NCBI GenBank assembly: GCA_013306675.1
Contig: JABLUY010000062.1
Coordinates: forward strand, 1-64,000
Source: Thraustochytrium sp. TN22
Taxonomy: Eukaryota > Sar > Bigyra > Thraustochytrida > Thraustochytriidae
Reading direction: 5' to 3'
DNA: 64,000 nucleotides
Shown here: one piece after another, positions 4,069 through 36,435 of the stretch
Numbering within the stretch: the first letter of the stretch is position 1
Layout: each line of letters opens with the position of its first letter
Program-made: the position numbers and the translations under genes
Notes under the pieces: generated by a model
Database searches by the model: none
Told to the model about the DNA's origin: nothing
The model's input: the letters and a program-made list of their open reading frames with translations, nothing else

Positions 4069-6282
4069 TCACAGCTTGCTGGCCGAGAGGCGAGTCTTCT
4101 CAGCGCGGCGGAACTTGGCGAGGGTGCCCTCGGTGAGGCCGTTGGGGCAGTCGCGCGCGTTGAGGATCATCTCAATGGCGCAGCGGAAGCCGTTGTCGGC
4201 GAAGTCCGGGGACATCTCGATGTAGCCGGCCTGGCCCTTGTTCTGGCGATCGACGATCTTGGCCATCTCCTTGGCGGTGGAGATGAGCTCCTCCTCGGTG
4301 ATGAGGCCAAAGTGGAGCCAGTTGCCGAGCAGCTGGCTGGAGATGCGCAGGGTGGCGCGGTCCTCCATGAGGCCGACGTCGTTGATGTCCGGGACCTTGG
4401 AGCAGCCTACGCCGAGGAAGATCCAGCGCGAGACGTAGCCGAGGATGACCTGGACCATGTCCTTCATCTCGTGCTGGATGACGTCGCGCGAGAGCGTCTC
4501 GCCCTTGGGCACGAGCGGGGGCGTGAGGAGGTCGGCGAGGGTGCCGCGGGGGCCAGAGGCGAGAATCTGCTTCTCGATCTGGGCCTGCACGGCGAAGACG
4601 TCAACCTTGTGGTAGTGGATGGCGTGCAGGGTGCCGGCGGTGGGGCTGGGCACCCAGGCAGTGGTGGCACCCTGCTTGGGCTCGCCGATCTTGGCCTCGA
4701 GCATCTCGGCCATCATGTCGGGCTTGGCCCACATGCCCTTGCCGATCTGCGCCTGGCCGACGAGGCCGGTGGCGATGCCAATGTCGACGTTGCGGTCCTC
4801 GTACGAGAGGCGCCAGGCGGCCTTCTTGATGTCGCCCTTGGGCAGCATGGGGCCGAGGCGGAAGGAGGTGTGGATCTCGTCGCCGGTGCGGTCGAGGAAG
4901 CCGGTGTTGATGAAGATGCAGCGCGACTTGACCTCGCGAATGCACTCCTTCAGGTTGGCCGAGGTGCGGCGCTCCTCGTCCATGACGCCGATCTTGACGG
5001 TGTTGGCCGGGAGGCCGAGCAGCTGCTCGACGCGGTCGAACATGCGGTTGACCATGGCGACCTCCTCGGGGCCGTGCAGCTTGGGGCGCACGATGTTGAT
5101 GGACTTGGCGCGCGAGTTGCGCGGCGCCGAGCCGGTCTTCTTGAGGTCGTGCATGCCGGCGAGAACGGCGACGTAGCAGTCGACAATGTTCTCCGGCACC
5201 GGCTGGTTGGTGTCGGCAAAGGTGACGAAGTCGTTCGTCAGGTGCAGGCCGACGTTGCGCACGAGCAGCACGGCGCGGCCCGGCAGCAGGAGCTGCGAGC
5301 CGTCCGGGCGCGTGTAGGTGCGGTCCGGGTTGAGCTTGCGCGACAAGGTCTTGCCGCCCTTGGAGAACTTGTCCTCCAGGTCGCCGCGCATGAGGCCGCA
5401 CCAGTTCGAGTACACGTGCGCCTTGTCCTCGGCGTCCACGGCGGCGACCGAGTCCTCCATGTCGCAAATGGCGGTGAGGGCCGCCTCGAGCACGACGTCC
5501 TTGACGCCGGCAGCGTGCGTCTTGCCAATCTGCGAGTTGGCATCGATCTCGATGATGACGTGCAGGTTGTTGTTGCGCAGCACCACGTCCGTGAGGCCCG
5601 AGTCCGCCTTGGTGTAGCCCACGAACTTCTCCGGGCTGGCCAGCGCGGCGGCCTTGCCGGACTTGAGCCCGACCTCGAGCGCCGAGCCCTTGAGGCGGAA
5701 CTCCTTGACGTCGCCGTACTTGGCGCCGCCGCTGAGCGGGAAGGTCTCGTCCAGGAAGGCGTGCGTGAGCTCAAAGACCTTGGCGCCGCGGACCGGGTTG
5801 TAGCCCTTGCCCTTCTCGGCGCCGTCCTTCTCGGCCGGGCCGGCGTCCGTGCCGTAGAAGGCGTCCAGGAGCGAGCCCCAGCGAGCGTTGGCCGCGTTCA
5901 GCGCGTAGCGCGCGTTATCCACGGGCACCACGAGCTGGGGGCCGGGCTGGCGCGCGATCTCATCGTCCACGCTGGCGATGTCCACCTTGAAGTCCGGGCC
6001 CTCCTTGACGATGTAGCCGATCGACCCGAGGAACGCCGCGTAGTCGCTCGCGTCCAGGTTGCCGCGGTGCGCCAGGCAGTACGCGTCGATCTGCGCCTGG
6101 ATCGCGTCGCGCTTGCGCAGCAGAGCCTCGTTCTGCGGCGCGAACTCGCGCAGCAGCGCCTCCAGCTGCTCCCACGCCTTGGCCGCCGGCACGCCCGTGC
6201 CCGGCACGATCTGCTCCTCCACCACCTTGCGCAGCGCCGCGTGCACCTTGAGCCCGCCAATGCGGGCGTAGTTCTGCGCCAT
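4069..6282 (-). CDS. Malate synthase, isoform G type, peroxisomal
   Basis: A 737-residue malate synthase, close to the 723 residues of E. coli GlcB and longer than the roughly 550-residue plant and fungal isoform A. It condenses glyoxylate with acetyl-CoA to malate in the glyoxylate cycle. Isoform G landmarks are present: MEDSVAAVDAEDK at about 275-288 (metal and active-site acidic residues), an Arg in LLVRNVGLHLT at about 342, IGVMDEERRTS at about 433, FINTGFLDRTGDE at about 460, and CSKVPDINDVGLMEDRATLR at about 625-645 containing the catalytic Asp. The protein ends in SKL, a peroxisomal PTS1 signal. The start MAQNYARIGG is chosen because homology begins there; the frame stays open far upstream without family similarity. 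A (GA)n tract lies about 90 bp upstream on the sense strand. Confidence 0.95.
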   Translation of the reverse strand: MAQNYARIGGLKVHAALRKVVEEQIVPGTGVPAAKAWEQLEALLREFAPQNEALLRKRDAIQAQIDAYCLAHRGNLDASDYAAFLGSIGYIVKEGPDFKVDIASVDDEIARQPGPQLVVPVDNARYALNAANARWGSLLDAFYGTDAGPAEKDGAEKGKGYNPVRGAKVFELTHAFLDETFPLSGGAKYGDVKEFRLKGSALEVGLKSGKAAALASPEKFVGYTKADSGLTDVVLRNNNLHVIIEIDANSQIGKTHAAGVKDVVLEAALTAICDMEDSVAAVDAEDKAHVYSNWCGLMRGDLEDKFSKGGKTLSRKLNPDRTYTRPDGSQLLLPGRAVLLVRNVGLHLTNDFVTFADTNQPVPENIVDCYVAVLAGMHDLKKTGSAPRNSRAKSINIVRPKLHGPEEVAMVNRMFDRVEQLLGLPANTVKIGVMDEERRTSANLKECIREVKSRCIFINTGFLDRTGDEIHTSFRLGPMLPKGDIKKAAWRLSYEDRNVDIGIATGLVGQAQIGKGMWAKPDMMAEMLEAKIGEPKQGATTAWVPSPTAGTLHAIHYHKVDVFAVQAQIEKQILASGPRGTLADLLTPPLVPKGETLSRDVIQHEMKDMVQVILGYVSRWIFLGVGCSKVPDINDVGLMEDRATLRISSQLLGNWLHFGLITEEELISTAKEMAKIVDRQNKGQAGYIEMSPDFADNGFRCAIEMILNARDCPNGLTEGTLAKFRRAEKTRLSASKL

Positions 6283-6367
6283 CTTCTCCGTCTGCGTCTG
6301 CCTTGCAAGCTTGGGCTGAAGGACTGCACGAGCGCGCTCGAAGCGGGACTGCTTTCTTTCCTGCCTG

Positions 6368-6368
<1 letters not shown>

Positions 6369-6402
<34 letters not shown>
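6369..6402. repeat. (CT)17 microsatellite upstream of malate synthase
   Basis: Uninterrupted CT repeat on the plus strand, read as (GA)n on the malate synthase sense strand, about 90-120 bp before its ATG. It may sit in the 5' UTR or promoter. Confidence 0.95.
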
Positions 6403-6404
<2 letters not shown>

Positions 6405-7310
6405 CCTTCTCTGCCCCTCTGCCTCTCCGCACAGACAGGCGACCGAGCGACTGAGCGACCGAGCAGCCAGCCGCGCGTTCTTGGACTGCGCGCCTCGCCG
6501 CGCTGCCGCCGCCGCCGCCCCGCGCCGCGCCGCACGCACCGCGATTTGAATTTCTGGCGGAGAAGCAGAGCGGGAAATGAAATCTTGGCGCTGTAATGCC
6601 TTGCCTCCGCCCCTTTTCCGCGGCGCCGTGCACCCGCACCGGACCCGGCCGCGCGCCCGCCGTCGCCCGGCTCCGACCAGGCGCCGCGCCGCGCAGACCC
6701 CGGGTCCGCTGCGCGCGCGCCGCCCGGCTCGCGGACGGGCCGCCACCCGCAATGGACCAGACCCCGCCACGACACGGCGCGCCGCGGGTTGACTGATGAG
6801 GACGCTCGCGGCGGCGCTCTGGCAGTGCTGCTGGCACTGCCAGGTGCTGGCAGGCGGGTGCGTGCGGCGGCAGCCACACGGCACGGCACGACGCGAGCGA
6901 GCGCAGGGCGCAGGACAGTGCAGCGCTCGCCGGGATTTTCGAAAAAATCGCCTCGGACGGTGACCTCGAGCTGGCCGGCGACGAGGAGGAGCTGAGCAGC
7001 CACTGACACCTGCCGGACGCGCCGACGAGCGCCCGAGCGCCTCGGTTTCGCTGCGAGGGACTCCGGAGGAAGCCCTGCCTGCCCACCAGATGGCCAAGCC
7101 TGGATGTGCAGGCAGTGCGTGCTGCGCAGCGCTGCGCTGCGCTGCACTGGACAAGACGAGGGACTTGAGGCGGCGACGACTCCGGCGAGGCGTGACGAGC
7201 CGCTGACCAGGCTACTAGCCTACTGGCAGTGGGTCGTGGCGGGCGAGTTAGATAGAAGGTGGGGCTGGCCCAGCTGGGCGTGGTGGCCAGGGCGTGGCGG
7301 CCAGCCAGAC

Positions 7311-7400
7311 GGCCTGCCGGCACCCGGGCACCGTCCAGGCGGCCTGCCGGCACCCGGGCACCGTCCAGGCGGCCTGCCGGGCGGCGCCAGCACCGTCCAA
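7311..7400. repeat. 30-bp tandem repeat, about three copies
   Basis: Two exact 30-bp units (7311-7340 and 7341-7370), beginning GGCCTGCCGGCACCCGGGCA, followed by a degenerate third copy. It is non-coding, between malate synthase and the Rab gene. Confidence 0.9.
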
Positions 7401-8015
7401 GCTTGGGGTGAGCGTGCCCAAGCCGGCGGGACGGGGACGTCTGGCTACAGGCACCGGCTGAGAGCCTGAGACAGTGAGTCTCTGACTGAGAGCGGGACAC
7501 GAGCAGGGCTTGAAGCCGAGGTTCTCCAACGCCGTGGCCGCCGCGCATCAGCCTTTCTTGAGGTGAATTGGCGGAGCTGTCGTTGCCTCACTGGCAGACT
7601 TTGTTGCTTGTTGACAAGCTTGTGACTGACTGTGAGCTAAGTAGTAGAGGGGAGGCAGCAGCCAGCCGGGCCATGAGGGCCACAGCCGTGGCCTGGGTGG
7701 CCGACCATGAATGAGTGTGCCCGAGAGTCACCATCGCGATGGCGAGCGCCATGTGCGCACCCTGCGCACCATCCGAAGCGTCGCTCCACAAGGCGCCGCG
7801 AGGGTTCTCAAATCAATCCAAAGCGCCGGCTCACTCACACGTCAGCACTCGCGAATTCTTGGGCCACCATGAGCCAAAACGAAGGAGGAACTTGTTGATG
7901 TTGTTGGATTGGAATTCCCGTTTACGATATACATGGGACGGCGGCGACGGCGTGGACGCCGACGGTGCGAGGCGGCGAGGACGTTTGATATTGACTTCGC
8001 TCAGCATCTCGTCGG

Positions 8016-19413: not shown

Positions 19414-20628
19414 TCAAATGCATACACTCTCGTCTTGCAAAAGGTCGCGGAAGGCGCCCGCCGTCATCCAGCCCAGCGCCGTCCGCTTGCCGATGAGCTC
19501 GTCCGACCTGTGCAGGTCGCCGAGAATCGAGAAGCACGAGGACTCCAGGCCGAGACCCAGGGCCCGGTGAAAGACCTCCTCCGCGGTCACAGCGTGCTCC
19601 CCCGGGCTCAAAAAGAACACGTAGTTCGGGTCCGTCCCGAAGACGTACACCGAGGCGAACCACTGGCAGACCGCATCCAGCACCCGCTGCAGCGCGCCCC
19701 GCGGGCCGCAGGTGTTCAGCACGATCCAGCCATCCGCCGCCAGCGCGCCGGCCGCGTGCGTGCGGAGGTGCTCCTCGGTCAGGAACGAGAGTGGCGGCAG
19801 GTCCAGCTCGTCGGCCTGCTCTGCGCCAGACTCTTGCGCCACGTCCACAAAGTACAGGTCGTACACGCCGCGCTCGCAGGTGGCTGCGAACTTGAGCCCG
19901 TCCGCGGCAAATGTTCGTACCTTGCCGTCCTCCGCGAGCCCAAAGTGCTCGCGCGCCTGGCTCAACACGTGCTCCGAGAGCTCCACCACGTCCACGGCCA
20001 GCTCGCCGTCTGTGCGCGCAAGCGCCATGGGCAGAGCGCCGCCGCCCGCGCCCACCACGCAGGCACGCTTGGCGCCACCGCCGCCGCCGCCGCCGCCGCC
20101 GCCACACACCAGGGTCAGCCCCAGCATCATGGCTTGGTTGACGTCGAAGACGAGCGCGCGAAAGTCGAACCGTGGGCGCGCCACGGGCCCCGCCTCGCCC
20201 TTGGCATCGTCCTTGTGGTCCTCGTTGTCCTCTTCATCCTCCTGCACCTCGTGGATGGCGATGGCGCTCTGGAAGAGTTCCGGGCTTTGCTGGAACGCGA
20301 GCATGCGCGCGCGGCGCACGGCACCGTCTAAGAAGACGTGGCCGTCTAGCACGCGCACGATGTCATCCGCGAAGACCTCAACGCGCGTGTCGGGCACGAG
20401 CATGGCAGCGCGCCGGATGCCCTCATCCTCGGTCTCATCCTCGTACAGCACCGAGTACGTGCCGGAAGCCTCGTCATAGCCCGTCACCACCGCGCCGTAA
20501 AAGAGCTCGTCCACGTTGCGCGCGCGCACCTCGACGCTGGTGCCCACGAGCACCTCGCCCTCCGCCGTTGGCGGCGGCGCTGCCAACGTCGCCGTGGCCG
20601 TGGCCGTCGTTGCCGCCACGGCCGCCAT
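19414..20628 (-). CDS. METTL13-like methyltransferase with Tudor-like N-terminus
   Basis: A 404-residue protein. An Ala/Thr-rich leader is followed by a Tudor/agenet-like beta segment at about 28-75 (GTSVEVRARN, FYGAVVTGYDE, YSVLYEDETED). A spermidine-synthase-like Rossmann methyltransferase follows at about 150-400: CVVGAGGGALPMALAR (SAM loop), VDVVELSEHVLSQAREHFGL (acidic residue ending beta 2), FAADGLKFAA, YDLYFVDV and GWIVLNTCG. The order and spacing match the C-terminal domain of METTL13/eEF1AKNMT, which methylates the N-terminus of translation factor eEF1A. A run of ten Gly just before the SAM loop is unusual. The METTL13 N-terminal methyltransferase domain is absent; the Tudor-like module takes its place. 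Substrate is inferred only. It is divergent from the MFSD5 gene, 369 bp away. Confidence 0.8.
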   Translation of the reverse strand: MAAVAATTATATATLAAPPPTAEGEVLVGTSVEVRARNVDELFYGAVVTGYDEASGTYSVLYEDETEDEGIRRAAMLVPDTRVEVFADDIVRVLDGHVFLDGAVRRARMLAFQQSPELFQSAIAIHEVQEDEEDNEDHKDDAKGEAGPVARPRFDFRALVFDVNQAMMLGLTLVCGGGGGGGGGGAKRACVVGAGGGALPMALARTDGELAVDVVELSEHVLSQAREHFGLAEDGKVRTFAADGLKFAATCERGVYDLYFVDVAQESGAEQADELDLPPLSFLTEEHLRTHAAGALAADGWIVLNTCGPRGALQRVLDAVCQWFASVYVFGTDPNYVFFLSPGEHAVTAEEVFHRALGLGLESSCFSILGDLHRSDELIGKRTALGWMTAGAFRDLLQDESVCI

Positions 20629-20997
20629 GGCTGCGGCCGTGACGCGGGTCCACCCGCGCGGAGCTCACCGCTGCTGCCGCCGCCGCCGCCGCTGCCGCTG
20701 CCGCCGCCGCCGCCGCCGCCGCCGCCGCAACCACGCAGCGGCTGTCCGGGTATGGAATGGTATGGTGGTGACGATTTGGCCGGCAGGCGCGCGGCAGCAG
20801 AACCCCAGCGCGCGCGCGAGCGGCGTGGCGCGGCGAGGCGGAGGCGCGGCGCTCGCGCGCCCCCCGGCGGGCGCCCAGCGCGGCGCGGCGCGTGGCGCGA
20901 CGACACGGGGCGCAGACTCCTGGCCAGACTCTCGGACTCGCGCGGACGCAGCAAGGCGGGCAGGAGGGACAAGGAGTCGACGCGACGGCCGCCCGCC
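20629..20997. other. divergent promoter spacer, GCC-rich
   Basis: 369 bases between the methyltransferase and MFSD5 starts. They include a CCG/GCC run at about 20675-20730, then mixed GC-rich sequence. This is presumably a shared bidirectional promoter. Confidence 0.6.
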
Positions 20998-22299
20998 ATG
21001 GAGTTGTACCTGGGCACCGTGGTGCTGGAGATGGTGGCATGCGCGGCGCTGCTGAAGCGGCAGCGCGACGCAATGATGGCGCAGCCGACGACATCCGAGT
21101 TTGGCAAGCTGCAGCGCGACTTTCTGGGGGCGCTGCTCCTGGCTTCTTGCGCCGACTGGATCCAGGGACCCTACCTGTACAAGCTTTACGCCTACATGGG
21201 CCTGCGCAAGAACGAGATCGGCCTGCTCTTCGTAGCCGGCTACGCGAGCTCGGCCGTGGTCGGCACGCTTGTGGGCGGTTTGGCGGACCGTTTCGGCCGC
21301 AAGCGCCTCTGCATCCTCTTCTGCATCCTCTACAGCCTCAGCTGCCTCTTCATGCATTCGCACGAGATCGGGATGCTCGTGGCCGGCCGCGTGTTGAGCG
21401 GCGTGTCCACGTCCATCCTCTACTCCGTCTTTGAGGCGTGGATGCTGCACGAGCACAAGCGCGCCGCCTTCCCAGACGAGTGGCTCGTCAATACGCTTTC
21501 GCGCGGCACCTTCCTCTCCAGCGTCGCCGCGGTATCCATGGCCGTGCTGGCCGGCGCCGTCAGCAGCTACGGTGGCTATACGGCACCCTTTGACGTGGCG
21601 GTCGTGTTTCTGATCCTCGCCGCCATTGTCATCGCGCGCACTTGGAAGGAGAACTTCGGCAACGGCAACGTCACGCCCGGCAGCAACTTCGTGGTCGGCT
21701 GGGTCATCATGGCCTCCAATCCGAATATCTGGCTCCTGGGCATTGTGCAGTCCTGCTTCGAGGGCGCCGTCTACGTCTTCGTCTACCTGTGGACACCGGC
21801 GTTGGAGAGCACGGCCAGCGACGAGGAGCTTCCGCACAGCCTGGTCTTTGCAGGCTTCATGGTTGCCATCATGATTGGCAGTAGCCTCTACCAGATTGCG
21901 CTCAAGCGGTTGGCCACGGAGTCCATTCTCATGTACAACGCAATCGTCGCCGCCATCTGCCTCTGTGTGCCCTACATCACTTCGAGCCACACGCTCAACT
22001 TCCTCTCATTCTGCCTCTTCGAGGTCTGCGTTGGCCTCTACCATCCGGCCATGGGCTTCCTGCGCGGCAAGTTCATCCCGGAGGAGGTGCGCGCCACCAT
22101 CGTCAACTTCTTTCGCGTCCCGCTCAACGGCCTGGTGATCTTGGTGCTGCTCCACTCTGGCGACCTCTCGCCCGGTGCCATGGGCCTCTGCAGCGCCGGC
22201 CTGCTTGGCGTCACGGCCGCAGTGCTCTTTACACTCGCCATTCGCGTCGGTGATTCCTCAAATGGCATTCTTCTCAAGTCGCAAGGCGATGAGGTTTGA
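20998..22299 (+). CDS. MFSD5: MFSD5/MOT2-type molybdate-anion transporter
   Basis: A 433-residue, 12-helix major facilitator. The N-terminal helix and LLLASCADWIQGPYLYKLY are typical of the MFSD5/MOT2 family. The MFS loop motif appears as GGLADRFGRKRLC. Other family features are AGRVLSGVSTSILYSVFEAW and PEEVRATIVNFFRVPLNG near the end. Chlamydomonas MOT2 and human MFSD5 import molybdate, needed for molybdenum-cofactor enzymes. The start at 20998 (MELYLGTVVLEM) matches the family N-terminus; the frame is open further upstream without likeness. The cytosolic C-terminus is short. Confidence 0.92.
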   Translation: MELYLGTVVLEMVACAALLKRQRDAMMAQPTTSEFGKLQRDFLGALLLASCADWIQGPYLYKLYAYMGLRKNEIGLLFVAGYASSAVVGTLVGGLADRFGRKRLCILFCILYSLSCLFMHSHEIGMLVAGRVLSGVSTSILYSVFEAWMLHEHKRAAFPDEWLVNTLSRGTFLSSVAAVSMAVLAGAVSSYGGYTAPFDVAVVFLILAAIVIARTWKENFGNGNVTPGSNFVVGWVIMASNPNIWLLGIVQSCFEGAVYVFVYLWTPALESTASDEELPHSLVFAGFMVAIMIGSSLYQIALKRLATESILMYNAIVAAICLCVPYITSSHTLNFLSFCLFEVCVGLYHPAMGFLRGKFIPEEVRATIVNFFRVPLNGLVILVLLHSGDLSPGAMGLCSAGLLGVTAAVLFTLAIRVGDSSNGILLKSQGDEV

Positions 22300-30399: not shown

Positions 30400-30432
<33 letters not shown>

Positions 30433-30496
30433 TGCTGCTGCTGCTATTGCCGAGGCCCGCCCGTCTCCGTCTTGAATCGAACGGATCACCAAAAGC
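30050..30496. other. divergent promoter spacer
   Basis: About 450 bases between the CFAP73-like and LarC starts. They contain AATGC/GCGGT short repeats at about 30160-30235 and a GCC/GCT run at about 30405-30445. No gene seen. Confidence 0.6.
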
Positions 30497-32131
30497 ATGA
30501 CGGTCGCCTACGTGGACTGCTTCGCGGGCGCCGCGGGCGACATGCTGCTGGGCGCGCTCGTGGGCGCTGGCCTGGACCTAGGCGACCTTCAGGCCAGACT
30601 CAAGTCCATGTGCGAGGTAGCGGACCAGTGGGCGCTGCGCGCGGAGCGCGTGCACCGCTCCGCAGGTGCCATCGCGGCGGTCAAGGTGCACGTGGACGTG
30701 CTGCAAGAGCAGCACCAGGAGCGCAATTTGGAGGACATTCGCGTGATCGTCGAATCCGGCGACGCGCTACCGCGTGCTGTCAAAGACAAGGCCATGGCTG
30801 TCTTTGAGCAGCTGGCACGTGCTGAGGCTGCCGTGCATGGCACCACCGTGGACCAAATCCACTTTCATGAGGTCGGTGCCATTGACAGCATTATTGACAC
30901 CGTCGGCGTCGTGCTGGGACTACATATGCTCGACGTTGATCGCGTCTACTGCAGCAGTATTCCCATGGCGCCGGGATGTGTCGGGACTGCGCACGGCATC
31001 CTCCCGGTTCCTGCGCCAGCCACCTTGCAACTGCTGCAAGGTCACTTCGAGCTTCATCAGGCGCCTCGCGTCATGCGCGGCGAGCTTGTCACACCGACCG
31101 CGGCCAGCCTGCTGCGCACGCTCGTGGCCCAAGAGGATAGTGGCAGTTTTCCGCATGCACGTTGGACCATTGATCGCGTCGGTGCCGGCGCGGGCTCACG
31201 AGATCCGGCGGAGTATCCGAATGTGTGCCGCATCATGCTGGGCAGGGTTCACTCCGGCCCGAAGGATAGGCAAGGGCAGAAGAACAATCTTGAGCATGGA
31301 CACAAGCACGGGCATGAGCACCAGGATGACCATGGGCATGAACATGCGCACGACCACGACCACGGACGGAAGCAAGAGCACGAGCAGGGGCATTCACATT
31401 CGCATGGGCATGGGCATGGGCATTCGCATGGGCACGGGCATTCGCACGGGCACGGGTATTCGCATGGGCACGGGCATTCGCTTGGACACGAGCACGAGCC
31501 CGAACATTCGCGCCCGCATCCGCCTGCGCAGAGGCAATTGCACGCCTCTCAATCTTCGCACGCGAGCCAGGGCGAGCCGATATCCGAAAGAGGGTCTTCG
31601 CATGAGGATCTGCTTGCGGCGGCCGGCGCCCCCAGATCCTCGCTTCAGGACGCCTCCTTGATGGAATCCGAGCTGGCGGTGCTCGAGTGCAACATTGACG
31701 ACATGACGGGCGAGTTGGCGGGCCACCTTGTGCCGCTCCTGTTAGGCGCTGGGGCCTTGGATGTTTGGTACACCCAAGTTCTCATGAAGAAGAATCGGCC
31801 TGGGCTGCAGCTTAGCGTGCTTTGCCGTCCAGGGCAGGAGGCCTCGCTGACAGCGTCACTGCTGCGCGAGTCGACGACGCTGGGCGTGCGCCAGCACCGC
31901 GTGCGGCGCGCCGCCTGCGAGCGCAGTTTCGCCACCCTGCGCACCTCGTACGGCGAGGTCCGCGTCAAGCAGGCCTGGGCGCCGGCGCCGGACGGCCGCG
32001 GCCGCGAGCTCGTCTCCGCCAAGCCCGAGTTCGACGACTGCCAGCGCCTCGCCGCGCTGCACGGTGTCCCGCTCAAGGTCGTCCTCGCCGCCGCCCAGCG
32101 CGACCTCCCTCTGGTCGCGCCCACCGTTTGA
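30497..32131 (+). CDS. larC: LarC, nickel-pincer cofactor nickel insertase, with His-rich insert
   Basis: A 544-residue LarC (former DUF111) protein. The N-terminal domain has YVDCFAGAAGDMLLGAL at 5-21, HFHEVGAIDSIIDTVG at about 122-137 and AHGILPVPAPATLQLL at about 163-180. The C-terminal domain has ECNIDDMTGELAGHL, YTQVLMKKNRPG and ESTTLGVRQHRVRR. LarC inserts nickel into the pincer nucleotide cofactor of lactate racemase and related LarA enzymes, using CTP. Some bacteria make it by a programmed frameshift (LarC1/LarC2); here one frame encodes both domains. Between them, residues of about 266-343 are a His/Gly/Asp/Glu-rich insert of HGH, SHGHGHG and HDHDHG repeats that should bind nickel or other metals. 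No LarA, LarB or LarE homologue lies in this window. Confidence 0.93.
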   Translation: MTVAYVDCFAGAAGDMLLGALVGAGLDLGDLQARLKSMCEVADQWALRAERVHRSAGAIAAVKVHVDVLQEQHQERNLEDIRVIVESGDALPRAVKDKAMAVFEQLARAEAAVHGTTVDQIHFHEVGAIDSIIDTVGVVLGLHMLDVDRVYCSSIPMAPGCVGTAHGILPVPAPATLQLLQGHFELHQAPRVMRGELVTPTAASLLRTLVAQEDSGSFPHARWTIDRVGAGAGSRDPAEYPNVCRIMLGRVHSGPKDRQGQKNNLEHGHKHGHEHQDDHGHEHAHDHDHGRKQEHEQGHSHSHGHGHGHSHGHGHSHGHGYSHGHGHSLGHEHEPEHSRPHPPAQRQLHASQSSHASQGEPISERGSSHEDLLAAAGAPRSSLQDASLMESELAVLECNIDDMTGELAGHLVPLLLGAGALDVWYTQVLMKKNRPGLQLSVLCRPGQEASLTASLLRESTTLGVRQHRVRRAACERSFATLRTSYGEVRVKQAWAPAPDGRGRELVSAKPEFDDCQRLAALHGVPLKVVLAAAQRDLPLVAPTV

Positions 32132-33144
32132 GCGCGCCGGGACCGCGTGCCTGCGTCCCCTCCCGCGCCTCCCTCTGTGCCCCCCCCTTTTTCGCGCGAG
32201 TTCCTGCGCCCCGGCGTCGCGCCTCCCGCCTCGCCTCCGGCGCCTTTCCGCTTGGATCGCGCAGGCCGCGCGGCCGGCCTGGCCTGGCGCGCGCCGCGCG
32301 GGTTTCCGGGCAGGAGGCGTTGCGGCGGCCGCGCCAGGCCCTCTCCAGGCCCGCGGCGCGCGCGCGGGCCGCGCCTGGGCCTCCAGGGGGGCATCGCGCA
32401 CGTCCCGCAAAACACAGTCGGGTCCGCCGCGCGCTGCGAGCTCGATGCGAGCTCTCCGCGAGTTCTCCGCGAGCTCCCGCCTCGCGCGGCGCCCGGCTGC
32501 CATCTCCAGCGCTCCGAGCCCCGCCGCCGCGGTTCTCGCGGCCGTCGCGCGCGCCGTCGCCGGCGGCTGCCTGCCCTGCTGGCCGGAGCGATCGATCCTC
32601 CCGCCGAGTCCCGCGCCGGCGGGCGCTGCGCTCACAAATCGTGGTCCAGGTCTCCAAGAACTAACTTAAAACTCGGCCGGCATCGGCAAGAACTTCAACT
32701 CCAGGGACCCTGCTGTCGGGCCGCGCCTGGCCGGCCGGCCTGCCGGCTGCCCTGCTCTGCTTGGCCAGGCTCTTCGAGGTCTTGGAGGTCTTGGAGGTCT
32801 TGGAGGTCTCTGCTCCAGTTCTCCAAAGCAGCCGCTGGCAGGCAGCGCGACGGAGTTCGGACACAGCATAACTTACAGTTGAGCGGCGCCGGTCCCAGGC
32901 TCGCCGCGGGATCCGACCGGGCTGGAGACCCGGCGGGAGCGGGACGCGGCGGCGCGCGCGGGCGAGGCCAGCGGACGTTGGGCAGGCAGGCAGGCAGGCA
33001 GAGCCGGATCGCGCGGCGACGGGCGCGACGCGCGGGCGGGCGAACGCGCGGCGCAACGGCGCGCGGCGGCGAGGGCAGGCAGGCGGGGAGGCAACGCGAA
33101 GGAGGCGGACGCGGAGGGCGGCGCGAAGGCCAGGGCGCGGGAGG
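32132..33144. other. 1-kb spacer between LarC and NAD-GDH
   Basis: GC-rich throughout, with CGCGCG-rich stretches (32140-32620), a GGAGGTCTT direct repeat (about 32775-32812), GGCAG repeats (about 32980-33000) and a purine-rich leader before the NAD-GDH start. Frames here are open on both strands, but the peptides are Arg/Ala/Pro-rich and unlike any family. No gene called. Confidence 0.55.
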
Positions 33145-36100
33145 ATGAAGAGGTCGGCCGTCGCGGCGGCGAGGCGCGCGGCGAGGTGGCGGGGCGTGCG
33201 CGCGCTCGCGTCGTCGACGGAGATCGGAGACCCGAACGAACGGCAGCCGAGGCCGATCCGGCGCGCGGATAGCGAGATGGTCATCATGGAGATGGATGAC
33301 GCGCTGGGGCAGAGCAAGGAGCGCTTCGACGAGCTGGTGGATATGCTGCAGCGCGAGCAGCGCGACGCGGCCAACGTCAAGGTGCCGTGGTTCCTGCAGA
33401 ACCTGCCGGATGCATACTTCAAGCAGGTCAAGCCGGAGCTGAGGCACCAGCACCTGGCGGCGCTGGTGGCGCTGTACGACTTCGGCGCGGTGCCGGAGCT
33501 GACGCTCAAGAGCGACAACGACCACACGCTGACGCTCATCAGCGGCGGGTCGAACTCGCCGCACAAGCTCATGTCGCAGATTGAGCGCATGCCGACGAAC
33601 TCGCCGCTGGAAGGCATGAGCATCTTCAACTCCAAGGACGGCGAGGTGAGCCTTAACATCTTCCGGTTCCTGGACCCGGACGAGCCCGTCATGCACGGCG
33701 CGCCGGCGACCCTGCCGGACGAGCTGCGCGCGTACCTGCGCGACCTGCACGCGGGGCGCTTTGCGGACGACCCGCAGCACCCGCGGCCGGCGGACTTTCT
33801 GCAGGAGGCGGCGCTGGAGGAGTTTGTGCGCGAGCGGTGCCGGCCCGAGTACGTGTCGCGCAGCAGCCCGCGGCGGTTCTGCAAGCAGGTGGCGCTGTAC
33901 CACGAGATCATGAAGGACGGCGACGACCAGGTGGGCATCGACATCGAGCCGAACTGGAACGGGAACCCGGAGAGTACCATGATCACGCTGGCCATCACGA
34001 ACGTGCTGACCATGGCCGCCATGAAGCGCATCACGCGCTACTTCGGGAGCAAGAACTTGAACAACGTGCGCACGCACCTGGACCTGGTGCGCGGCCCCCC
34101 CACCGAGGAGGAGCGCGAAGAGGGCATGACGACCAGCATCGCGCACGGCGACACGCAGGACCTGCTGCGGTCCAACACGGTATCCATGATTCGCATCCTC
34201 GTCGAGCCCCACGAGTCGACCGGCGGCCAGGTTGACATGGACGCGCTCAACCAGCGGCTCGTGGAGGACCTGCCCACAGTCAGCAAGTGGATCGACGACC
34301 GCGCGCTCGGCCTGCTTAGCCGCTACGGGCTTTCGGCGCGCGAGGCGGACATCGTACTGGCGCTGTGCGACCTCGCCCACGCCATTCTGGCACCCAAGGA
34401 CGCCTTCGAGTTCGCGCGATCCAACATCGAAAACGTTGTCATGGAGGAGTCCCGCATCGACTTCACCATGGAGATCCTGGACCTCTTCATGCGCCGCTTC
34501 GACCCGTCGCCCGAGGCCGCGGCCTGGACTGAAAAGGACGACGTCGCCTTCGCGGAGCGCATCGCCGCGGTGCGCGAGCGCATCCGGCAGTCCGGCGAAC
34601 TCGCCATGGCGCAGCAGACCTTTAGCACCATGCTTGACATCGTGCAGGGCACCTACCGCACCAACGCCTTCATTCCAGACCGCTTCGGCCTCGCGCTGCG
34701 CCTAGACCCGCGCGTCTGTGTGGAGCACCTGCTCAACGACACCTCGCGGCCCGAGGTGCCGCATGGCATCTTCTTCGTGCACGGCCGCCGCTTCTCCGGC
34801 TTCCACGTGCGCTTCCGCGACATCTCGCGCGGCGGACTGCGCGTCGTGACGCCGCGCAACAGCGAGGTGCACGCCGTGGAGAGCGCGCGCCAGCTCAAGG
34901 AGTGTTACGACCTCGCCTTCGCACAGCAGCTCAAGAATAAGGACATCGCGGAGGGCGGCTCCAAGGCCGTCTGCCTCGTTGACCTCCACGGCATCGACAA
35001 GGCCGGCAAGGAGCACGTCGTGCGCAAGAGCCTCAAGGCCATGGTCAACTCCGTGCTGGACCTCATCACGCCCGACCCAGGGGACCGCGCCCGCGTTGTC
35101 GACCACATGGGCGGCGTCGAGGAATTCATCTACTTTGGCCCCGACGAGCAGGTCACACCCGAGCACATCAACTGGATCGTCGCGCGCGCCGCGCAGCGCG
35201 GCTACGGCATGCCCAATGCCTTCATGTCCTCCAAGCCGGACGCTGGCATCAACCACAAGGTCTACGGCGTCACCAGCGAGGGCGTCTCCGTCTTTCTGCA
35301 CGAGGCGCTCCTCGCCACCGGCGTTGACACCTCGCGCCCCTTTACGGTCAAGATCACCGGTGGCCCCGACGGCGACGTGGCCGGCAACCTGCTCAAGATT
35401 TTGCACCGCGAGTACGGCGAGAACGCGCGCATTGTTGGCCTCGCCGACGGCACCGCTGGCCTCGAGGACCCAGACGGCATCGATTGGGACGAACTTCTGC
35501 GCATGTTCAACCACGCGCTCCCGCTTGAGGCCTTCTCACAGGACCGTCTCGGCCCCAACGGCAGTTTCTACCTTGCCGACACGCCGGCCGGCATTAACAA
35601 GCGCAACACCATGCACAACCGCGTCAAGGCCGACGCCTTCGTGCCTGCCGGCGGCCGCCCGGCCACCATCAACGACGAGAACTGGGACAAGTTTTTGCTG
35701 CCCGATGGCACCCCGTCCAGCCCGCTCATCGTCGAGGGCGCCAACCTCTTCCTCACCTCCACCGCCCGCCAGAAGCTCTTTGAGAGCGGCTGCATCATCG
35801 TCAAGGACAGCTCCGCCAACAAGTGCGGTGTGATCTGCTCCTCCATGGAGATCATCGCCTCCATGCTCCTCAACAAGGAGGAGTTTCTCGCCCTCAAGGA
35901 GCCTTTCGTCAAGGACGTGCTCGATCTTCTGCGCGCGCGCGCCAAGCGCGAAGCCGAACTCATGTTCCGTGAGTACAAGAGCAACCCGGCGCAGCCCCTG
36001 CCCCGCGTTTCCGAGCGTATCAGCCGCGCCATCAACCGCTCCACGGACGCCATCGCCGCCTCCCTTGAAACGCTCCCGCGCGACCAATTCGAGGAGCTTC

Positions 36101-36435
36101 TTCAGATTGTGCGCGCCTCCCTGCCCAAGACTCTCATGGATGCCGCCTGGGACCGCTTCGGCGACCGCGTGCCCGAGGCCTACACGCGTTTCCAGCTCGC
36201 CTGCCTCCTCGCATCCGAGCTCGTCTACAATGAGGGCCTTCCCTATGTCGAAACCATTAGTGACGACGTCCTGGCCGCCATGGTGGTCGAGTACGCCGAC
36301 CGTCAGCTCAAAGTCGCTCGTCTCGCCGACCGCGTCGATGGTGGTCAACCCCTCGACGAACACGACAAGGCACTCCTCGCGTCCATCCTCAAGGCTGGCG
36401 GCGCGCGCACGATGGTCGACCACCACCTCCGCTAG
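33145..36435 (+). CDS. GDH2: NAD-dependent glutamate dehydrogenase, large (GDH2) type, mitochondrial
   Basis: A 1096-residue enzyme, matching the roughly 1090 residues of yeast GDH2 and similar NAD-GDHs of oomycetes and other stramenopiles. It deaminates glutamate to 2-oxoglutarate and ammonium with NAD. The N-terminus MKRSAVAAARRAARWRGVRA is a mitochondrial-type presequence. The regulatory N-terminal half is followed by the catalytic core: RDISRGGLRVVTPRNSEVHA at about 557-576, LKNKDIAEGGSKAV with the conserved Lys at about 593-606, and the Rossmann loop TGGPDGDVAGNLLKIL at about 739-754. A helical C-terminal domain contains NEGLPYVETISDDVLAAMV. The start is the first ATG of the frame. It has no visible breaks. 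Confidence 0.95.
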   Translation: MKRSAVAAARRAARWRGVRALASSTEIGDPNERQPRPIRRADSEMVIMEMDDALGQSKERFDELVDMLQREQRDAANVKVPWFLQNLPDAYFKQVKPELRHQHLAALVALYDFGAVPELTLKSDNDHTLTLISGGSNSPHKLMSQIERMPTNSPLEGMSIFNSKDGEVSLNIFRFLDPDEPVMHGAPATLPDELRAYLRDLHAGRFADDPQHPRPADFLQEAALEEFVRERCRPEYVSRSSPRRFCKQVALYHEIMKDGDDQVGIDIEPNWNGNPESTMITLAITNVLTMAAMKRITRYFGSKNLNNVRTHLDLVRGPPTEEEREEGMTTSIAHGDTQDLLRSNTVSMIRILVEPHESTGGQVDMDALNQRLVEDLPTVSKWIDDRALGLLSRYGLSAREADIVLALCDLAHAILAPKDAFEFARSNIENVVMEESRIDFTMEILDLFMRRFDPSPEAAAWTEKDDVAFAERIAAVRERIRQSGELAMAQQTFSTMLDIVQGTYRTNAFIPDRFGLALRLDPRVCVEHLLNDTSRPEVPHGIFFVHGRRFSGFHVRFRDISRGGLRVVTPRNSEVHAVESARQLKECYDLAFAQQLKNKDIAEGGSKAVCLVDLHGIDKAGKEHVVRKSLKAMVNSVLDLITPDPGDRARVVDHMGGVEEFIYFGPDEQVTPEHINWIVARAAQRGYGMPNAFMSSKPDAGINHKVYGVTSEGVSVFLHEALLATGVDTSRPFTVKITGGPDGDVAGNLLKILHREYGENARIVGLADGTAGLEDPDGIDWDELLRMFNHALPLEAFSQDRLGPNGSFYLADTPAGINKRNTMHNRVKADAFVPAGGRPATINDENWDKFLLPDGTPSSPLIVEGANLFLTSTARQKLFESGCIIVKDSSANKCGVICSSMEIIASMLLNKEEFLALKEPFVKDVLDLLRARAKREAELMFREYKSNPAQPLPRVSERISRAINRSTDAIAASLETLPRDQFEELLQIVRASLPKTLMDAAWDRFGDRVPEAYTRFQLACLLASELVYNEGLPYVETISDDVLAAMVVEYADRQLKVARLADRVDGGQPLDEHDKALLASILKAGGARTMVDHHLR

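Follow-up and report, generated by a model that had tools for sequence, protein, structure and literature searches.

Nickel-pincer cofactor genes, complete on paper, in Thraustochytrium sp. TN22 and a LarC with a histidine-rich stretch at its domain junction

Introduction

Nickel enzymes are few in eukaryotes, urease being the familiar one. In bacteria, the nickel-pincer nucleotide (NPN) is made from nicotinic acid adenine dinucleotide by LarB, LarE and LarC in succession, the last of them using CTP (PMC9283937). Bacterial LarC, as known from L. plantarum, Moorella thermoacetica and Synechocystis, comprises a LarC1 and a LarC2 domain.

According to the available parts of PMC11770544, some unicellular eukaryotes possess genes for NPN biosynthesis and LarA homologues. 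All eukaryotic LarA homologues fall into the GntE branch, and the enzyme from Phytophthora nicotianae (LarAH15) is active. LarA homologues, the eukaryotic one included, were assayed there with NPN from purified LarB, LarE and LarC; those parts of the paper contain no assay of a eukaryotic NPN-biosynthesis enzyme. The accessible text of PMC12611868 repeats that eukaryotic LarA homologues were reported. In the open-licence literature we found no description of a eukaryotic LarC or of a His-rich LarC linker.

We analyzed larC of the protist Thraustochytrium sp. TN22 in a stretch of 64,000 nucleotides (positions 1 to 64,000 of contig JABLUY010000062.1, "the window"), together with the remaining lar genes of the assembly. 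The initial annotation of the window had proposed a LarC pathway in a eukaryote. The genes of the pathway are present here, but they are not the first to be noted in unicellular eukaryotes (PMC11770544, as far as available); the assembly adds one more case to a known kind, and all four genes could be located in it. With every step of NPN synthesis and a user enzyme encoded in one protist, eukaryotic NPN biosynthesis would become directly testable.

The larC gene and the domains of LarC

The larC gene is an uninterrupted frame of 544 codons from ATG to stop. For coordinates of this and all other features see Table 1. The protein matches Pfam family Ni_insertion (PF01969; cut-off 22.1 bits), NCBIfam LarC1 (TIGR00299, 184.3 bits, cut-off 90) with residues 76–248 and NCBIfam LarC2 (NF052512, 138.1 bits, cut-off 50) with residues 394–516. 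The domains follow each other in the order that membership of the family requires, LarC1 and then LarC2, and with both scores above the cut-offs the initial reading of two LarC domains in one frame was confirmed. The top PDB sequence match is 12bi_D, a nickel insertion protein (E = 5e-82). By homology, the predicted function of the protein is that of LarC, CTP-dependent nickel insertion into P2TMN.

Table 1. Coordinates of the lar features in the window and on three further contigs (C403, C398, C65) of the assembly.
Feature	Position	Strand	Basis
larC CDS, single exon, 544 aa + stop	30497..32131	+	PF01969, 412.8 bits
LarC1 domain, residues 1–255	30497..31261	+	TIGR00299; PDB 12bi_D match to residues 1–257
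His-rich linker, residues 256–391	31262..31669	+	33 His in 136 residues; predicted disordered
Densest linker part, residues 267–344, 30 His	31295..31528	+	comparison with shuffles
18-bp in-frame tandem repeat, 4.8 copies, 88% matches	31408..31494	+	Tandem Repeats Finder
LarC2 domain, residues 392–544	31670..32128	+	NF052512; Foldseek 6bwo_A
LarB open frame	C403:39662-40438	+	265.9 bits (cut-off 175)
LarE, two exons	C398:109612-109151, 109082-108657	-	spliced 168 bits (cut-off 150)
LarA homologue open frame	C65:65350-67491	-	NF052594, 624.9 bits (cut-off 500)

The protist protein shares the conserved residues as well as the two domains with bacterial LarC. It keeps 58 of 60 family columns, i.e. 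columns with one residue in at least 90% of 89 other rows, a sample that includes the best 80 of at least 591 genome loci and is biased towards similar rows. The two exceptions are an alanine for glycine at position 202 and a serine for alanine at position 204. LarC1 and LarC2 form an in-frame stretch in 71 of these 80 genome loci, and 59 of the 71 entered alignment A2. The identity of the protist LarC to these 59 sequences, which were drawn from the best 80 of at least 591 loci, is 36–46%. Whereas the protist gene is one frame, LarC2 lies in another frame or on the other strand in 8 of 91 loci, and 4 of 91 have no LarC2 hit. On a megaplasmid of Niallia taxi (L013, 1036–3155) LarC1 and LarC2 lie in different, overlapping frames, possibly a case of frameshifting.

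A structure predicted from the 60-row alignment A2 contains two confident domains; the pLDDT is below 50 for residues 270–276 and 278–385. The LarC2 part of the model superimposes on the solved LarC2 structure 6bwo_A (Foldseek, TMt 0.93, rmsd 1.5). For the LarC1 part, Foldseek yielded no match below E 0.001, the full-length 12bi entries being absent among the hits.

The His-rich linker

The insert between the domains had initially been described as a His-rich stretch of about 78 residues. Its His-rich character and its position hold; its length does not, as it spans about 136 residues, and 78 fits only its densest part. When the protein was shuffled 2000 times, no 78-residue segment contained more than 19 His, against the 30 found there.

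To compare linkers across the family, we measured the stretch between residues 250 and 394 of the window LarC in each row. The comparison set comprised 6 plasmid rows, 3 viral-contig rows and the best 80 of at least 591 genome loci, i.e. 89 of 91 rows, as L018 and L019 (near-copies of L020) were dropped before counting. By this measure the protist linker has 143 residues with 34 His, and the median of the 88 other rows, some of which hold LarC1 only, is 11 residues. The longest of these 88 are found in the cyanobacteria Oculatella (58 residues, 6 His) and Symploca (46 residues, 4 His). Among the 88 other LarCs whose linker could be measured, the best 80 of at least 591 genome loci included, not one has a comparable LarC1–LarC2 linker.

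Bacterial LarCs can instead carry histidines within LarC1. A loop with six or more His is present in 20 of the 89 other LarCs (again including the best 80 of at least 591 genome loci). The protist protein has no such His-rich loop: at the corresponding site, residues 67–76, it contains a single His. In L013 this loop is long, and longer than counted, since alignment trimming shortened the sequence; the membrane gene that follows larC on this megaplasmid appears to resemble a nickel permease. A third location of His enrichment in the LarC family is seen in an uncultured Schlesneria (L034, LarC from 8001), where a run rich in His and Asp lies close to the C-terminus, with 16 His among 40 residues. 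Judged from the aligned proteins, His enrichment recurs in LarC, and its placement at the junction is unusual in this sample. It is this layout, with the His stretch at the LarC1–LarC2 junction, that looks new.

Part of the linker consists of an 18-bp tandem repeat and hence arose by repeat growth. The protein might be a working nickel inserter whose linker, swollen by repeat expansion, merely provides a flexible connection and takes no part in handling nickel. The predicted disorder and the lack of a similar linker in all 88 other measurable LarCs (the best 80 of at least 591 loci included) would fit such a spacer, and we regard it as a real possibility, if a somewhat doubtful one: the repeat covers only 87 of the ~408 linker bases, in the remainder His alternates with spacer residues that vary, the linker uses both His codons (18 CAT, 15 CAC), and His-rich stretches recur elsewhere in LarC.

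A nickel store in the linker, initially likened to those of HypB or UreE, is plausible by analogy with HypB and with the His-rich loops of other LarCs. The His-rich HypB, a nickel store of hydrogenase maturation, likewise carries a His-rich, low-complexity stretch on a nickel-delivery protein, and the available text of PMC7055735 reports 9 bound Ni(II) ions for a HypB containing 24 His. HypB and the linker are not homologous, and in LarC the His-rich part connects two domains of the very enzyme that inserts nickel; nickel binding is proposed here by analogy. The same source reports that His-rich HypB also binds Zn, Cu, Co, Cd and Mn. The linker could accordingly bind metals mainly as a general buffer or store (zinc, copper, excess nickel) and not feed the active site of LarC. 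We consider this unlikely, as the linker belongs to LarC and no other enzyme of the pathway needs nickel. The linker offers a clean deletion target for studying how a cyclometallase holds and receives nickel.

LarB, LarE and the LarA homologue

The assembly (37,891,866 bases in 453 contigs) contains the lar genes on four contigs, with larC in the window, LarB on C403, LarE on C398 and the LarA homologue on C65. The three latter loci are the best candidates of profile searches, and further lar copies may exist. The open frame of LarB has no ATG, and a first exon was not found. A second match to the LarB profile on C367 was rejected with 37.7 bits against the cut-off of 175; it is probably a PurE domain.

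The two exons of larE are separated by a 68-nt GT-AG intron (GTAAGT...TAG). Unspliced, the pieces score 85.5 and 65.4 bits, and LarE passes the cut-off only when spliced, by 18 bits. The spliced protein contains the motifs SGGVDS and CYHC and a third cysteine (residues 35, 107 and 190). It is therefore a LarE of the CXXC-C type, which is expected from the motif to hold a [4Fe-4S] cluster. The SGGXDS and CXXC-C motifs are shared with the LarE from Thermotoga maritima, which is of the [4Fe-4S] type (PMC9283937, available parts). Unlike T. maritima LarE, the protist protein, with its predicted cluster, is encoded by a eukaryotic gene with an intron.

The initial annotation had named the absence of LarA, LarB and LarE homologues from the genome as an observation that would refute its inference of a nickel cofactor. 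All three were found above the curated NCBIfam cut-offs and, since proteins of these families are encoded, this objection falls away. With an intact and conserved LarC, and with LarB, LarE and a LarA homologue encoded in the same assembly, the NPN pathway is complete on paper.

Upstream of the likely start of LarA (Met198 of the open frame, L010:4901) short tandem repeats that read as RHGTA units were observed (L010, ~4950–5110, minus strand). RHGTA-like repeats are also present upstream of larE.

The user enzyme

A LarA-type user enzyme had been anticipated. A member of the family is indeed present; it is, however, not a lactate racemase, and it matches the model of a hexonate (gluconate/mannonate-type) epimerase. 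The LarA homologue exceeds the cut-off of NF052594, "nickel-dependent putative hexonate epimerase" (group 18), and scores 28.2 bits against the Ni_dep_LarA cut-off of 460, by which we rejected lactate racemase as the output.

The best PDB match is 4nar (E = 4.6e-32). Along this alignment, the residue numbers of 4nar agree with R41, E155, S156 and K164 of Thermotoga GntE2 (PMC7583248, as far as available). The protist protein has equivalents of D72, R75, H108, H174, K184, H200 and K298, and an E-V loop (E352 and V353, following H351). In the accessible parts of PMC7583248, which describe the roles of these residues, the NPN and catalytic positions together with the E-V loop are the signature of groups 18–20. 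The LarA homologue shares loop and catalytic positions with the LarAH group 18/GntE enzymes, and we classify it by its sequence as a group-18 enzyme close to the D-gluconate/D-mannonate 2-epimerases. It is probably a D-mannonate/D-gluconate (hexonate) 2-epimerase. LarAH15 from P. nicotianae, the already known eukaryotic enzyme of the GntE branch (PMC11770544, available parts), is likened to it here by family.

That NPN serves another protein, with the LarA homologue not its main user, appears improbable: the cofactor and catalytic positions checked in the LarA homologue are in place, although for cyanobacteria, most of which have no LarA, a user other than LarA has been proposed (PMC11796402, as far as accessible).

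Four plasmid records match the LarA homologue. The two close ones (51.5% and 51.1% identity) come from members of the Alteromonadaceae that had been collected along with algae or algal mud. In Catenovulum the gene order is uxaC, TRAP transporter genes, gluconokinase, LarA homologue, larC, a LarE-like gene and larB. In Saccharobesus, gluconokinase and LarA homologue form one open reading frame, followed by a LarE-like gene and larB and, further on, by 6-phosphogluconate dehydrogenase and uxaC. This frame (L102:7419–9188, Saccharobesus litoralis plasmid NZ_CP026605.1), annotated only as gluconokinase, combines a gluconokinase at the N-terminus with a complete LarA homologue of group 18. As a natural fusion of epimerase and kinase it supports hexonate use. 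Both operons fit a route from mannonate via gluconate to 6-phosphogluconate; for the protist, such a route would be an extrapolation from these gene orders. The order is also consistent with the D-mannonate activity published for the eukaryotic LarAH15 (PMC11770544, accessible parts).

Both hexonate operons contain a membrane protein adjoining larB (L102:10726–11409 and L103:11697–12383). It is annotated as TauE/SafE or hypothetical, and its HAxDADHV motif seems to resemble that of a nickel permease.

Proposed mechanism

Based on these comparisons we propose the following scheme. By homology, LarB would carboxylate the ring, LarE would insert sulfur, and LarC would insert nickel into the pincer nucleotide in a CTP-dependent step. 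The disordered His-rich linker may, by analogy, bind several Ni(II) ions and keep them close to the active site, serving as a tethered store. This would be the job that His-rich loops in LarC1 may do in some bacteria. The group-18 LarA homologue would then, as its family suggests, act on a hexonate with this cofactor, and hexonates would be led to 6-phosphogluconate.

Taken jointly, we regard as likely a nuclear protist LarC in a pathway complete on paper, with a hexonate epimerase as user and the linker as nickel reservoir. The narrow margin of LarE above its cut-off, the LarB frame without ATG, the repeat content of the linker and its lack of counterparts among the 88 other LarCs count against this joint explanation.

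Origin and genomic surroundings

The phylogenetic placement of LarC was calculated with 92 rows, 80 of which are the best of at least 591 confirmed genome loci and hence biased towards similar rows. In this sample the protist LarC branches beside Chloroflexota with a support of 88/80, below the starred level, on an end branch of 1.11. A cyanobacterial (plastid-like) sister had a log-likelihood lower by 41.46 and was not rejected (AU p = 0.0754). The LarB and LarE trees exclude hits below 120 bits (LarB), below 70 bits (LarE) or below 55% of the query length, as well as L018 and L019. LarB (41 rows) pairs with one row from Armatimonadota (SH-aLRT 86); LarE, in a tree of 24 rows, sits on an end branch of 2.76 and could not be placed. 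The long branches of LarC, LarB and LarE and their lack of strongly supported sisters speak against a recent transfer.

A common donor for all four genes is not supported, since in the two operons with the close LarA homologue (51%) the identities are lower for LarB (~41%), LarE (26–29%) and LarC1 (31%, in the one stretch with a hit). A viral origin was rejected: the LarC alignment found five loci on viral contigs with 33–40% identity, three of them near-copies. A single LarC1 query found no relative on viral contigs, and the LarA homologue no match among phage records.

The genes near larC in the window encode a mitochondrial carrier, a DUF4200 protein, an NAD-glutamate dehydrogenase, protein kinases, a kinesin and STAG. 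An MFS_5 gene at 20350–22296, 8.2 kb from larC, corresponds to the MFSD5-type transporter that the initial annotation had placed 8 kb away. On C398, larE is flanked by a PUF-repeat gene and a WD40/TPR gene. The latter scores 72.1 bits against the IF140-IFT172 TPR model (cut-off 26.8) and slightly higher, 79.6 bits, against the ELP1 TPR model; we take it for IFT172, so that the organism is probably a flagellate. The LarA gene on C65 lies near an ABC transporter and a lipoyl ligase, larB on C403 near a sulfotransferase and a shikimate kinase domain.

The LarC family is mainly prokaryotic and larC itself is intronless, as would be expected if the lar genes were bacterial contamination of the assembly. 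We reject this as extremely improbable. Eukaryotic neighbors are present on all four lar contigs, larE contains an intron, and the identity of LarC to the LarC rows found is at most 48%, the best 80 of at least 591 genome loci included. The GC content of larC is 65.3%, that of the window 66.3%. At third codon positions larC has a GC fraction of 0.76, lower than the 0.82–0.89 of many neighboring frames, but the adjacent DUF4200 gene is at 0.76, too. The initial view of the contig as eukaryotic thus stands.

At slightly worse than even chances, we tentatively suggest that the domain junction of a eukaryotic LarC has become a nickel reservoir and that this LarC forms, with LarB, LarE and the hexonate epimerase, a complete nuclear pathway that was anciently acquired. 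If true, nickel storage and nickel insertion would be joined in one polypeptide.

Some further features of the window were observed. A CCG/CTG-type triplet run (30400–30446) about 50 bases 5' of the larC ATG sits in the gap between larC and the oppositely oriented DUF4200 gene. The large glutamate dehydrogenase at 32872–36432 (plus strand) matches the catalytic domain of bacterial NAD-GDH, and the minus strand encodes a malate synthase with a G-type insertion domain at 4072–7587.
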